Shown in pieces: positions 1,563-18,954 of a DNA stretch of 64,000 nucleotides (its first letter is position 1; every line of letters begins with the position of its first letter). Below the pieces are notes generated by a model. It ran no database searches. It was not told the origin of the DNA and worked only from the letters and a program-made list of their open reading frames with translations. The position numbers and the translations under genes are program-made. The DNA comes from Oceanicoccus sp. KOV_DT_Chl (GTDB lineage: Bacteria > Pseudomonadota > Gammaproteobacteria > Pseudomonadales > Dasaniaceae), in the NCBI RefSeq assembly GCF_900120175.1, contig NZ_FQLF01000005.1, forward strand, positions 436,501 through 500,500, written 5' to 3'.

Positions 1563-3353
1563 TTAACGGATATTAATGATAGCCTGCGTAACAGTATCCG
1601 CAGTTTCAATCGTCTTCGCATTGGCCTGGAAGTTCCGCTGAGCAACAATCAACCTGACCAATTCTTCTGATAAATCCACATTAGATTCTTCCAGCGCACC
1701 GGATTGGATAGCACCTAAAGTACTGGTTAGCGGCGCACCCACCACCGGCTCTCCCGACTCAAAGGATTGCGCCCACGACGTTTCGCCCAAAGCACTTAAA
1801 CCCTGTTCATTGGCAAAGGAAGCCATCGCTACCTGGCCTAAAATTAATGCCTCACCATTGGTATATCGAGCAAAAATTTCGCCGGTACTGTTAATTTCCA
1901 ATCCGCTTAACTGCCCGGTAGCGTAACCGTCCTGATCAACTGAGGAAACGGCAAAGTTACTACCAAATTGAGTAGAGGTACCTATATCGACAACAAAATC
2001 AGAGTTACCCGTTGTCGCAGTAGTACTTCCATCAGTGGAAGACTGGTTAGCACCCGCCGGATTCCAGTTATCAATAGTTAAGACATCCGGAATAGAGCTT
2101 TGCAAAGTACCATCTGTAGCAAAAACTAAATCATAATGCACTTGAGAAGCAATATTTGTAGCTCTTACCAAAGCGCTGGCAGTATTTGCAGCAGCAGTTT
2201 GTGCAGTGCTATCCAACGTAGCTGCCAGCGCCAATGCATTTGCTGAAGCAGTAGCCGCCAACAAAGCCGAAGCAGCAGCATTATCGACATCCGCCTCACC
2301 AGCACCTGGACCCGCTATCCTCGCTGCCTCAGCAAAGGCTTCAGCATTCACCGCCTCATCCCGTGCCGTTGTAGCTGCTGCGGTCAATGCTGCATTACCT
2401 GTAGCTACCGCGGCTGTAAGCGCAGTATTGGCAGCGACCACCAACGCCTCAAGCTCTGTCTCCAGCGCCGCTACATCACCAGCCACAAAAGGAGTTGGCA
2501 CTGCTGCCGCTGCTGCATTAGCAGCCGCCGTTGCAGCCAAGCCATCAACCGTCGTAGTTTGCGTCGCTGCATCAGCAGTCAATACAGCTGTAGCCTGAGC
2601 GACAGTATTATTAGTGGTTGCTGTCGCCAAATCTGCTGCTGCCAGTGTACCGCCATTATTCAGAACATTTTGTAAATTACCATTTTCATCAGGAATATAG
2701 GCATACATACGCCATGCATTATCAGTATCAGACTTTACATAATAGGTAGACAACACATGTGACTGACCACGGCTATCAAAAATCGTTAGAGACGTAGAGC
2801 TATTAAACGTGTCTGCGTCATTAGGATCAAAAGTACTGATAACTGGCGGGTCGTTACGGGCATCAAGATTGAAAAGCAAATCAACTTCTGTGGTAGGCGA
2901 TGGCGCCAAATCACTCACTGCAACTTGCAAATCATCCGGGGTGCCACCAACACCGGTACCAGAACCTGTCGGTAAAAAGCCCTGTAATCGCGATCCACTA
3001 TTATTGGTGATATAGCCTTCTTCATTGAGACCAAAATACCCCGCTCGGGTAAAAGCTGTCGCGCCACTCTCTTCAGCGACAATAAAAAAACCGGTGCCAT
3101 TAATCGCCAGGTCCAAACTATTGTCGGTAAACGAAACGTTACCCTGGTCGAACTGTTGTGCAATGGCATTGACCAACACACCACTACCGGCACTATTACT
3201 ACCGCCACCCACTAACGAGTTGGCGTAAACATCACCAAACTCAGCACGAGAACGTTTGAAGCCGGTGGTACTAGCATTAGCAATATTATTACCGGTAACT
3301 TCAAGGTCCGTATTGGCGGCACGTAATCCACTAAGCGCAGTATTAAAAGTCAT
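1563..3353 (-). CDS. flgE: Flagellar hook protein FlgE with large Ala-rich insertion
   Basis: Builds the flagellar hook, the joint between rod and filament. The N-terminus ([19 protein letters not shown], then [20 protein letters not shown]) and C-terminus ([20 protein letters not shown], then [18 protein letters not shown]) are classic FlgE/FlgG-family ends. At 596 residues it is much longer than typical FlgE (about 400). The excess is an Ala/Thr-rich stretch at residues ~234-404 (bases ~2142-2654), between strand-like segments [12 protein letters not shown] and [11 protein letters not shown] of the outer hook domain. It is the last gene of flgBCDE, 47 bases after flgD, and is followed by a terminator. 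Confidence 0.95.
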
Positions 3354-5162: not shown

Positions 5163-5202
5163 CTAGCATCTAGCATCTAGCATCTAGCATCTAGCATCTA
5201 GG
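5163..5202. repeat. Heptamer tandem repeat CTAGCAT, five copies plus CTAGG
   Basis: Five perfect head-to-tail copies of CTAGCAT (5163-5197) followed by CTAGG. The array starts with CCTAG and ends with CTAGG. It is intergenic, between the cheR stop (5207) and the flgB promoter (5041). Such arrays can change copy number by slippage. No coding function is seen. Confidence 0.95.
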
Positions 5203-17132: not shown

Positions 17133-17630
17133 TTGATCACATGTAATGAGCAAACTCTAAGCAATACGCTGCTATTTTCGCTTTACCTATTGCTGAGCGG
17201 TTGTTACCAATCCGCCCCTATCTGCCCCGCTAACGACACGCTGCCAGCAGCTGAAAGATTTGCCCCTAGTGCCGGCTGCCTCACACTTGTCGATGGAAAG
17301 TTATTAGTCGTAGAAGACTTCAACCAAAAACTCAGCATTCCCGGTGGCAGCAGTCAAAAAAACGAAACATCACGCTGCACAGCCCATCGCGAAACCTGGG
17401 AAGAAACCGGCATCAGCACCATACCCTTCACATTTATTCACCAGTTTGACAGCGGCTTTCACCTATATCACTGTAAAATAAAATCCAACGATGCCAACAT
17501 TAATCCACCACTGCGATTGGAAAATTTACGTGTATTCTGGTTAGCACCCGATCAATTTTCAAACTATCAATGGCGTTATACCGGACAACAAGATTGGATT
17601 GCCGGCTGGATAACACAACACACAGAATAA
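17133..17630 (+). CDS. Nudix hydrolase with lipoprotein signal
   Basis: 165 residues from a TTG start at 17133; no in-frame ATG is available before the signal. Residues 1-24 form a lipoprotein signal ending LLLSGC. The Nudix box G-x5-E-x7-RE-x2-EE-x-G is visible from GGSSQKNE through HRETWEETGI, so the catalytic glutamates are present. The body gives a short Nudix domain (residues ~45-160). Substrate unknown. A membrane-anchored, extracytoplasmic Nudix enzyme is unusual because nucleotide diphosphates are mainly cytoplasmic. Follows yhhQ closely. Confidence 0.78.
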   Translation: MITCNEQTLSNTLLFSLYLLLSGCYQSAPICPANDTLPAAERFAPSAGCLTLVDGKLLVVEDFNQKLSIPGGSSQKNETSRCTAHRETWEETGISTIPFTFIHQFDSGFHLYHCKIKSNDANINPPLRLENLRVFWLAPDQFSNYQWRYTGQQDWIAGWITQHTE

Positions 17631-17689
17631 AATTTCGCCACCAAACTCTGGAATACAGCGCCGAAAAATACCGATCCGGTATCCAGCCT

Positions 17690-17717
17690 TTGCAGTAGGC
17701 TGATAATTCATTACAAT
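17690..17717 (+). promoter_or_regulatory. Likely sigma-70 promoter of tRNA-Arg
   Basis: TTGCAG (17690-17695), a 16-base spacer, TACAAT (17712-17717). The expected start near 17724 is about 20 bases before the tRNA 5' end. Reasonable match, one base short of the ideal spacer. Confidence 0.45.
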
Positions 17718-17745
17718 CTCGATCTTTATTTTCCGAGTGTTTATT

Positions 17746-17822
17746 CCGCCCTTAGCTCAGCTGGATAGAGCGTCCCCCTCCTAAGGGGAAGGTCTCAGGT
17801 TCAAATCCTGAAGGGCGGACCA
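17746..17822 (+). tRNA. tRNA-Arg (anticodon CCT)
   Basis: 77 bases including an encoded CCA. Acceptor stem CCGCCCT pairs with AGGGCGG, discriminator A, then CCA (17820-17822). T8-A9 and the D-arm TAGCTCAGCTGGATAGAGC are standard. Anticodon stem TCCCC/GGGGA with loop CTCCTAA gives anticodon CCT, reading AGG. T-stem TCAGG/CCTGA with loop TTCAAAT. The 3' end is repeated twice downstream in 133-bp units. Confidence 0.95.
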
Positions 17823-18088
17823 TTCTTTTGCCCTTCAGGGTTTGAACCCAGGTTTAACAAAACGTATACGTTTTGAACGCCCGTTTTATTCAGGCCGCCC
17901 CGAAGGAGTTAAAGCAGGCCTTAGCCTGATTTAATTAATCCTGAAGGGCGGACCATTCTTTTGCCCTTCAGGGTTTGAACCCAGGTTCAACAAAACGTAT
18001 ACGTTTTGAACGCCCGTTTTATTCAGGGCGCTCCGAAGGAGTTAAAGCAGGCCATAGCCTGATTTAATTAATCCTGAAGGGCGGACCA
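17807..18088 (+). repeat. 133-bp tandem units each starting with the tRNA-Arg 3' end
   Basis: Two full 133-bp units (17807-17939, 17940-18072) and a third partial one (18073-18088). Each begins with CCTGAAGGGCGGACCA, the last 16 bases of the tRNA. The two full units differ at four positions. Each also holds an inverted copy of the tRNA T-arm (GCCCTTCAGGGTTTGAACC, first at 17830-17848), a perfect palindrome AAAACGTATACGTTTT (17859-17874 and 17992-18007) and a CAGGC..GCCTG mini-palindrome. The organisation resembles the tyrT locus of E. coli, where 178-bp units repeat the tRNA 3' end, although the unit sequence is different. Confidence 0.95.
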
Positions 18089-18105
18089 CATAAAAAGACT
18101 CCCCC

Positions 18106-18954
18106 TCAGTCATTTTTCAGTACCGCATTCACCTTCGGTAATAATGGTTTTTTAATCATCGGCCATAGCAACTCCTCTGCCCAATGCAGTCTGGGGGATA
18201 TTGGCAGCCCAACATTTTGCTGGCGCTGATGCGGGTGTTTTGCTGTTTCAAATAAGTGATCTATAAAAAATAAGGTCACCGCATAATTTCCGTTAGGATG
18301 AGCGCCAGAACCATAGGCATGGTGGGCATGGTGAGCGTCTGGCAGTGTAATAACCTTCTCCAGCACCAACCACACCGGCTCGGTGCGAGGAAACATTTCC
18401 CGTAAATAGATATCCCAACGAAATGATGTATGGGTGAGTACATTGCACAGATAAGATGTGAGTACCGCCAAGGCATAGGCTTCGTAAATACCGGTATACA
18501 TGCTAAAAGCGCCCATCCAGGGTTGCGGCAATAAAAACATCCAAAAAATATTGTAGCGATACATCAAGCCAACACTCATATCCAAACCGCTGTGGTGGGT
18601 ACGATGTAGTTTCCACATCCAGCGCCATTCATGAGCCTTACGGTGTATCCAGTAATGCAAAAACTCTTTAGTAAAAAATAAACACAAATAGGCCAACCAA
18701 ATAGGCGAGTCGATCAAGCTTAAACTCGATTCAGGAAAAAGCTGAATTAATAGATAACCTGCAGCACCTCCCAACAAGGCTCCCGATACAATCGGCTGGC
18801 CAATAAGACCCGCTAAAGAAAATGCGGCATCCCGTAACGGCCGCTTAAAGCGCCGCATGCGCCCGCTAATTAATTCAAAAAAATAAATAATGAAAAAAAC
18901 ACTAAATACCACGATGCCTAACTGCGACTGTACTCTCTCAACATCGTATTCCAT
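18106..18954 (-). CDS. Sterol desaturase / fatty acid hydroxylase family protein
   Basis: 282 residues, integral membrane di-iron enzyme family. Histidine clusters that bind iron: HYWIHRKAHEW, HRTHHSGLDMS and DAHHAHHAYG, plus HTSFRWD. Several hydrophobic segments surround them. It likely hydroxylates or desaturates a lipid; the substrate is unknown. Lies 20 bases downstream of the alpha/beta hydrolase gene on the same strand and probably shares its transcript. Its 3' end abuts the tRNA repeat units. Confidence 0.88.
   Translation of the reverse strand: MEYDVERVQSQLGIVVFSVFFIIYFFELISGRMRRFKRPLRDAAFSLAGLIGQPIVSGALLGGAAGYLLIQLFPESSLSLIDSPIWLAYLCLFFTKEFLHYWIHRKAHEWRWMWKLHRTHHSGLDMSVGLMYRYNIFWMFLLPQPWMGAFSMYTGIYEAYALAVLTSYLCNVLTHTSFRWDIYLREMFPRTEPVWLVLEKVITLPDAHHAHHAYGSGAHPNGNYAVTLFFIDHLFETAKHPHQRQQNVGLPISPRLHWAEELLWPMIKKPLLPKVNAVLKND

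Follow-up and report, generated by a model that had tools for sequence, protein, structure and literature searches.

The tandem 133-nt units that follow the tRNA-Arg(CCT) gene of Oceanicoccus sp. KOV_DT_Chl, in a stretch of 64,000 nucleotides (the window), are a real and well-conserved feature. On balance, the evidence favors their interpretation as widespread RtT-like multi-hairpin elements of about 90 nt, lodged in the loops of extra tRNA copies, the unit having subsequently been doubled. In effect, the T-arm and 3' end of tRNA-Arg(CCT) would have been copied and the copy interrupted in its T-loop by an element of four hairpins (hp1-hp4), with the functional tRNA left intact upstream of the occupied copy. 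The simplest route to the doubled unit would be slippage or recombination acting on the 19-nt tRNA 3' end copies; direct repeats of this end make the units able to multiply. The element itself would move in trans by means of some enzyme, and the units would be transcribed as a continuation of the tRNA and then cut by tRNA-processing enzymes to an RtT-like RNA that may be mostly a by-product rather than a selected regulator. The interpretation is based on the split T-arm, the tracking of local tRNA sequence by the flanks, the inserts in D-, T- and anticodon loops, the two-sided changes in base pairs and the patchy occupancy of tRNA genes.

The original prediction described tandem 133-bp units behind tRNA-Arg(CCT) with only four differences between the two full copies, and both points hold. 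ARAGORN calls the tRNA, a period-133 array spans 17804-18088 (2.1 copies, 97% identity), and the units differ exactly at 17855/17988, 17895/18028, 17899/18032 and 17921/18054. The recurrence of the tRNA 3' end was also seen correctly, with a length of 16 that has to be corrected to 19 nt: AATCCTGAAGGGCGGACCA is present at 17804, 17937 and 18070. A chosen 12-nt piece of this end occurred in none of 2000 mononucleotide shuffles of 17823-18088. Beyond this earlier description, each unit contains an inverted copy of the T-arm and acceptor 3' strand together with four internal hairpins (Table 1). A NUDIX-domain gene (17133-17630, + strand) lies upstream of the tRNA, and a gene of the fatty-acid hydroxylase family (18106-18954, - strand) has its stop 17 nt past unit 2. 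Elsewhere in the window, CTAGCAT forms a perfect 7-bp tandem repeat of 5.6 copies at 5163-5201.

Table 1. Features of the tRNA-Arg(CCT) locus in window positions; R1 is the covariance model of the insert described in the text.
Feature	Position	Strand	Basis or detail
Intact tRNA-Arg(CCT)	17746-17822	+	ARAGORN; Rfam tRNA 67.2 bits; T-loop TTCAAAT
Unit 1	17823-17955	+	Spacer, inverted T-arm/acceptor copy, T-arm 5' half, multi-hairpin insert, tRNA 3' end
Unit 2	17956-18088	+	Layout as unit 1, four differences; hp0, hp2 and hp3 stems perfect
Inverted copy of T-arm and acceptor 3' strand, unit 1	17830-17848	+	19 nt, 95% complementary to 17798-17816
Inverted copy of T-arm and acceptor 3' strand, unit 2	17963-17981	+	Letters identical to 17830-17848
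R1 element, unit 1	17850-17941	+	R1 94.1 bits, E 1.1e-21 (among the 13 training rows of R1)
R1 element, unit 2	17983-18074	+	R1 99.5 bits, E 4.5e-23 (among the 13 training rows of R1)
Element parts, unit 1	hp1 17858-17875; hp2 17878-17897; hp3 17898-17908; hp4 17909-17934		T-arm 5' half AGGTTTAA
Element parts, unit 2	hp1 17991-18008; hp2 18011-18030; hp3 18031-18041; hp4 18042-18067		T-arm 5' half AGGTTCAA
Second tRNA 3' end copy	17937-17955	+	19 nt; repeat search
Third tRNA 3' end copy	18070-18088	+	19 nt; repeat search

Read from 5' to 3', a unit opens with a 7-nt spacer, followed by the inverted copy of the T-arm and acceptor 3' strand (GCCCTTCAGGGTTTGAACC) and by the T-arm 5' half (CAGGTTCAA in unit 2, CAGGTTTAA in unit 1). 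The hairpins come next, namely hp1 (CAAAACG..CGTTTTG), hp2 (CGCCC..), hp3 (around CGAAGG) and hp4 (loop CATA or CTTA), after which AATCCTGAAGGGCGGACCA closes the unit. Because the insert lies between the T-arm 5' half and the tRNA 3' end, the second T-arm is recognized as a split copy of the tRNA's own T-arm, the split falling after the T-loop letters TTCAA in unit 2 and TTTAA in unit 1. Three of the four differences between the units touch stems; compared with unit 2, unit 1 carries G-U for G-C in hp0 and one unpaired position in each of hp2 and hp3. The predicted RNA fold reaches -49.5 kcal/mol (z -4.9) for unit 1 and -58.9 kcal/mol (z -7.5) for unit 2.

One promoter-like site is found upstream of the tRNA (17689-17717; 0.8 expected), and a terminator scan gave no terminator-like site from the tRNA end to hp4 of unit 1. 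In both units hp4 is itself a weak terminator-like site (17915-17928 and 18048-18061; two found, 1.0 ± 1.2 in shuffles), so that a transcript might stop at hp4 and need not run through to the end of unit 2. Judged from these signals, transcription of the units together with tRNA-Arg(CCT) is predicted as plausible. A putative small RNA derived from the units is plausible.

The spread of the insert was assessed with R1, a covariance model trained on 13 elements picked by hand in the window genome and in its family. One of its training rows carries one wrong flank letter, and counts based on R1 favor T-loop sites because the model contains T-arm letters. Absence from close relatives, named with the original prediction as something that would speak against it, does not apply, as elements occur in all ten genomes of the family (E ≤ 0.1). 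Matches extend to 67 of 369 genomes of the class Gammaproteobacteria (E ≤ 0.01) and to 36 of 398 genomes of the phylum (E ≤ 1e-4), 24 of these being outside the class. In named genomes, a hairpin pattern free of tRNA letters identified 113 stretches (80 listed by title), including Oceanicoccus, Dasania, Zhongshania, Haliea, Aggregatibacter, Mannheimia and Yersinia. Pattern stretches also occur in Alphaproteobacteria (Rickettsiales, Midichloriaceae, Micavibrio), where misbinning is possible, since three of the four with good matches are metagenome bins. R1 was run on 97 of the 113 stretches plus the E. coli tyrT locus, with 101 matches at E ≤ 0.1. A later run covered 85 of the 113, loci without a match of interest being omitted, as were the strong matches L153 and L230, taken as near-copies of L205 and L178; a second R1 locus set consisted of 64 chosen sources. 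The non-proteobacterial records among the titled loci (15 of 80) yielded one R1 match only, with E 0.089.

In the window's own genome, a DNA search revealed related sequence close to two other arginine tRNA genes, tRNA-Arg(TCT) and tRNA-Arg(CCG), with three copies in tandem at the second; tRNA-Ser(GCT), too, is followed by an element. Five further loci of this genome (L127, L128, L131, L132 and L134) hold a near-identical R1-like element, mostly behind a shared GGGGTCAGAGC-type repeat, a composite repeat family. L129 and L130 are made up of R1-like units, each about 75 nt long, repeated head to tail with no tRNA nearby. Extra hairpin-like sequence was noted within the hp2 part of elements linked to tRNA-Leu(TAA) (L187, 4322-4451; L219, 5348-5477, - strand), possibly a nested insertion.

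The structure of the insert is conserved at the level of pairing. In an alignment of 101 sequences (A4), two-sided changes occur at 24 of 28 pairs and 92.9% of cells are paired, a level reached by none of 500 shuffles and compared with at most 43.9% for shifted partners; A4 was fitted to the structure of R1, its hp1 letters are biased by the search pattern, and kinship among the sequences may inflate its counts. The smaller alignment of 13 rows gives two-sided changes at 16 of 28 pairs, with 90.0% paired.

A key property of these elements is their position relative to tRNA genes. Elements located no more than 1200 nt downstream of a same-strand tRNA account for 14 of 33 in the window's own genome (E ≤ 0.01; 0.16 expected), 6 of 12 in the relative G005 (0.06 expected) and 22 of 46 in the relative G009 (0.25 expected). 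These counts took the matches listed, which are 33 of 38, 12 of 13 and 46 of 47, respectively, and one own-genome element scored for tRNA-His actually lies within a pseudo-tRNA-Arg array. By the same distance, occupancy is patchy, with elements at 9 of the 40 tRNAs found in the own genome, 6 of 40 in G005 and 12 of 35 in G009. In a pooled set of 200 R1 matches (196 non-identical), from loci chosen for holding matches, 108 of the 196 elements lie downstream of a same-strand tRNA (≤ 1200 nt) and 24 upstream of one (≤ 600 nt), with an opposite-strand tRNA in these windows for four. The start falls 51-104 nt after the tRNA in 74 of the 108 downstream elements, and the nearest tRNAs represent 21 different anticodons. 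The remaining 64 elements have no same-strand tRNA in the windows used, which counts against lodging in tRNA copies; eight of them had less than 300 nt of upstream sequence. Because R1 contains T-arm letters, the count was repeated with the bare hairpin pattern. Over the 113 stretches this pattern gave 121 non-identical matches, a figure that takes in chance ones: 37 downstream, 13 upstream only and 71 in neither position, with five opposite-strand cases; T-loop letters directly precede the hairpin in 27 of the 71.

The letters that flank the insert follow those of the local tRNA. On the right, a match of at least 10 nt to the 3' end of the element's own tRNA was found for 58 of the 108 downstream elements, compared with 54 of 2565 comparisons with other tRNAs, and where the right match is at least 8 nt long, it starts at tRNA position A58 in 49 of 78 downstream elements. 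On the left, with downstream and upstream elements combined, tRNAs with TTCGA have elements flanked by TTCGA (83), TTCA (3) or other letters (24), and tRNAs with TTCAA have elements flanked by TTCA (16), TTCGA (1) or other letters (5). Directly before hp1 stand CGA (71) or TCA (16) among 96 downstream elements; CGA (8), TGA (6) or TCA (2) among 17 upstream elements; and TCA (25) or CGA (18) among 60 elements without a tRNA. Even among the 64 tRNA-less elements, 20 are closed by a tRNA-like 3' end, against an expectation of 1.8 by shuffling. For instance, the elements of L141, L171, L200 and L225 end in this way with no tRNA in 5.7-7.1 kb upstream, and that of L155 has its matching tRNA-Leu(TAA) 7.1 kb upstream; all five are possible far ends of islands or rearrangements.

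Elements upstream of tRNA genes suggest that the T-loop is only one of the sites. When the left flank of the 24 upstream elements was compared with the next intact tRNA, broken tRNA copies were recognized, interrupted in the D-loop in eight cases, in the T-loop in seven (six judged by the left flank and L149 by the right) and in the anticodon loop in one (L120); the remaining eight have no tRNA-like left flank. In the own genome (L125, about 2650-3100; C7:229.1-229.6 kb), the intact tRNA is preceded by two pseudo-tRNA-Arg(TCT) copies arranged in tandem at a distance of 266 nt, whose D-loops hold an insert and whose T-loops hold an R1 element. Two wider rules were considered and dropped. A preference for hairpin loops outside tRNA copies is not clearly above chance (own mean -16.3, cross mean -15.4, n = 29). 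The outer stem between the inverted copy and the tRNA 3' end is clear in the window and weak over the 108 downstream elements, where the longest perfect stem (own mean 5.13, cross 4.72) and the duplex energy (-17.0 and -15.2 kcal/mol, n = 108) barely exceed those of cross pairs, and for this reason it is not claimed for the family.

Occupancy of tRNA-Arg(CCT) itself varies among relatives. Comparison of the window with the loci of eight relatives (G025 being partly masked there and G007 ending at a contig edge) shows filled sites in the window genome (G000), G005 and G009, a weakly matching one in G008 (E 0.0027), and no R1 match at tRNA-Arg(CCT) in G002, G006 and G022. The T-loop TTCAAAT, common to the window tRNA and its copy, is present in none of the seven relatives' tRNA-Arg(CCT) genes set out for comparison, and the GGACCA end of the window tRNA recurs in G008 and G009, not in G002, G005, G006, G022 and G025. 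An element that is probably mobile would fit such patterns; that neither insertion nor excision was observed in the single genomes compared counts against both mobility and lodging.

The likeness to the E. coli tyrT locus that had been proposed is right, and closer than the proposal had it. In both loci a tRNA is followed by tandem units, each ending in the tRNA 3' end, and E. coli K-12 has four RtT copies at tyrT, spaced 178 nt where tandem. By eye, RtT (RF00391) also shares with the window an inverted T-arm copy, GGTTCGA, hairpins, a CCCGAAGGG hairpin and AATCC; it differs in its tRNA-Tyr locus and 178-nt unit, versus tRNA-Arg(CCT) and 133 nt in the window, and in hp1 and hp4, which are unlike. 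The RtT model gave no match in 17700-18200 of the window up to E 10 (Rfam gathering threshold 45 bits), and R1 with default filters returned nothing in the tyrT locus at E ≤ 0.1. With filters off, R1 ranks the four RtT copies first to fourth in the 2.1-kb locus (10.0-13.7 bits, next 2.8; E 0.003-0.027, significant within the locus and not genome-wide). The same ranking is obtained with R2, a model from 101 elements that leaves out E. coli, at 14.8-16.9 bits with the next at 2.8 (filters off; E 0.0016-0.0048, again significant for the 2.1-kb locus and not for a genome).

A bridge between these groups is provided by the element of L258, which scores 58.7 bits with RtT (cut-off 45), 40.8 bits with AaHKsRNA22 (cut-off 39.8) and E 1.1e-7 with R1. 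Two copies in L262 reach 48.0 bits with RtT; none of the other 18 of the 20 chosen loci scanned exceeds the RtT cut-off, with sub-threshold matches in L260, L080 and L082. The AaHKsRNA22 model (RF02902), named for an Aggregatibacter sRNA, has four hairpins in the order of the window units and scores 29.9 bits on unit 2 and 27.3 bits on unit 1, below its cut-off of 39.8. It matches in 13 of 37 relatives at E ≤ 1, above cut-off in three of the 37. Among the matches inspected (28 of 38 places), a same-strand tRNA (Gln, Ser, Val, Leu, Met, Lys, Arg) precedes 13; the others, some of them weak and perhaps due to chance, have no such tRNA before them. Unlike the window units, the R1 match of Aggregatibacter L163, which may not be AaHKsRNA22, has no same-strand tRNA within 1200 nt upstream. 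A chain of above-threshold profile matches joins RtT, AaHKsRNA22 and the window units; by Rfam score the latter are not RtT members, and through L258 they are placed by profile in the same superfamily.

To our knowledge, there is no accepted origin for the E. coli tyrT repeats. Short hairpin repeats that apparently invade genomes include the double-hairpin elements of mitochondria and the Rickettsia palindromic elements; these and the RHE occupy other genomes and other targets and are likened here by description. The RHE of sponge mitochondria, in the excerpt of PMC2800124 considered, are likewise short hairpin repeats that appear to invade. REP and BIME sequences are also dispersed hairpins, and the consulted part of PMC2965389 assigns rtT-like elements upstream of gatY, rbfA and cvpA to BIMEs; compared by description, window-type elements differ in that many of them come after tRNA genes and occupy loops of tRNA copies. 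Across titles and the beginnings of abstracts, mostly from non-subscription papers and including excerpts of the stem-loop surveys PMC1590033 and PMC2267715, a family of hairpins inserted in tRNA loops was not described, and AaHKsRNA22 was not found.

The alternative that survives best, although it is unlikely, is a selected regulatory RNA of the RtT type, released from tRNA transcripts and kept for the stringent response, as a sponge or as a decoy for T-arm or CCA enzymes. A description of rtT RNA from the E. coli tyrT operon dates from 1991 (cited in the sections available of PMC4986893 and PMC2965389). The portion of PMC4986893 considered reports that RtT-family RNAs of A. pleuropneumoniae located upstream of tRNA-Asn and tRNA-Lys gave Northern signals, and quotes both the release of RtT from tyrT and other E. 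coli tRNA operons and a role of rtT in the stringent response. Together with the annotation of E. coli RttR as an ncRNA, the two-sided pair changes and the stretch free of terminator-like sites between the window tRNA and hp4 of unit 1, these reports are what such an RNA would predict; conserved structure and published transcripts fit it equally well, which is counted against the lodging account. Selection for an RNA agrees less well with occupancy that varies by species and by tRNA, with copies inside the D- and anticodon loops of broken tRNAs, and with others in arrays or further repeats away from tRNAs. Moreover, unit 1 is one pair short in hp2 and in hp3 relative to unit 2, besides its G-U in hp0, and several other loci have a terminator-like hairpin separating the element from the tRNA (by eye, not counted).

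The original prediction also raised repeated integration at the tRNA. A lodged insertion is retained from it, in the form of a small hairpin element that sits in a tRNA copy's T-loop; a run of islands is not. Integration of islands or phages at the tRNA 3' end, with an att copy left each time, is improbable: a 133-nt unit is too short to hold a gene, conservation of the insert reaches beyond the class, and 5' parts of tRNAs are duplicated too, even though direct repeats of the tRNA 3' end, the tRNA-like ends of 20 tRNA-less elements and the distant tRNA of L155 would suit it. An own-genome copy about 8.3 kb downstream of tRNA-Arg(TCT) would suit it as well, but no obvious phage-type integrase is seen in that stretch (ORFs of at least 90 aa, by eye), and an integrase island there was rejected, the stretch up to the far copy showing, by eye, a transposase-like ORF and others. 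A phage origin was likewise set aside, as seven viral-contig loci found by two patterns gave no R1 match at E ≤ 0.01 and a single one at E ≤ 0.1 (0.027). A plasmid origin was not retained either; among the eight matches listed of 100 records, only the tRNA and a few bases beyond it matched (query 2-86). Least credible of all is plain local duplication by slippage or template switching with hairpins formed in place: forward, inverted and second forward T-arm copies do resemble template switching, and tandem arrays occur at several loci, but the same insert and pair pattern stand downstream of tRNAs with 21 anticodons, so that the insert was inherited or transferred and not made anew, and local duplication may account for the doubling of the unit.

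Returning to elements lodged in tRNA-copy loops, a broader proposal is possible, if short of probable. RtT, AaHKsRNA22 and the window unit might form one class of non-autonomous mobile elements that insert in the T-, D- and anticodon loops of tRNA genes, next to CGA, TGA or TCA, probably by recognizing folded nucleic acid, and leave an intact tRNA beside the occupied copy.

The findings place the E. coli tyrT repeats, which look like distant members of the window-element family, as what appears to be one outlying member of a family present at many tRNA genes, ranging over Gammaproteobacteria and over loci and genomes outside that class. Its tRNA-linked copies follow a simple rule, a multi-hairpin insert in the loop of a spare tRNA copy, and the joining of two separate Rfam families, RtT and AaHKsRNA22, is suggested. 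With a target site, a covariance model and comparisons of filled and empty sites, mobility and the origin of the repeats are now testable. Should movement be borne out, bacteria would have a counterpart of the mitochondrial hairpin elements, one that uses tRNA genes as its harbor.
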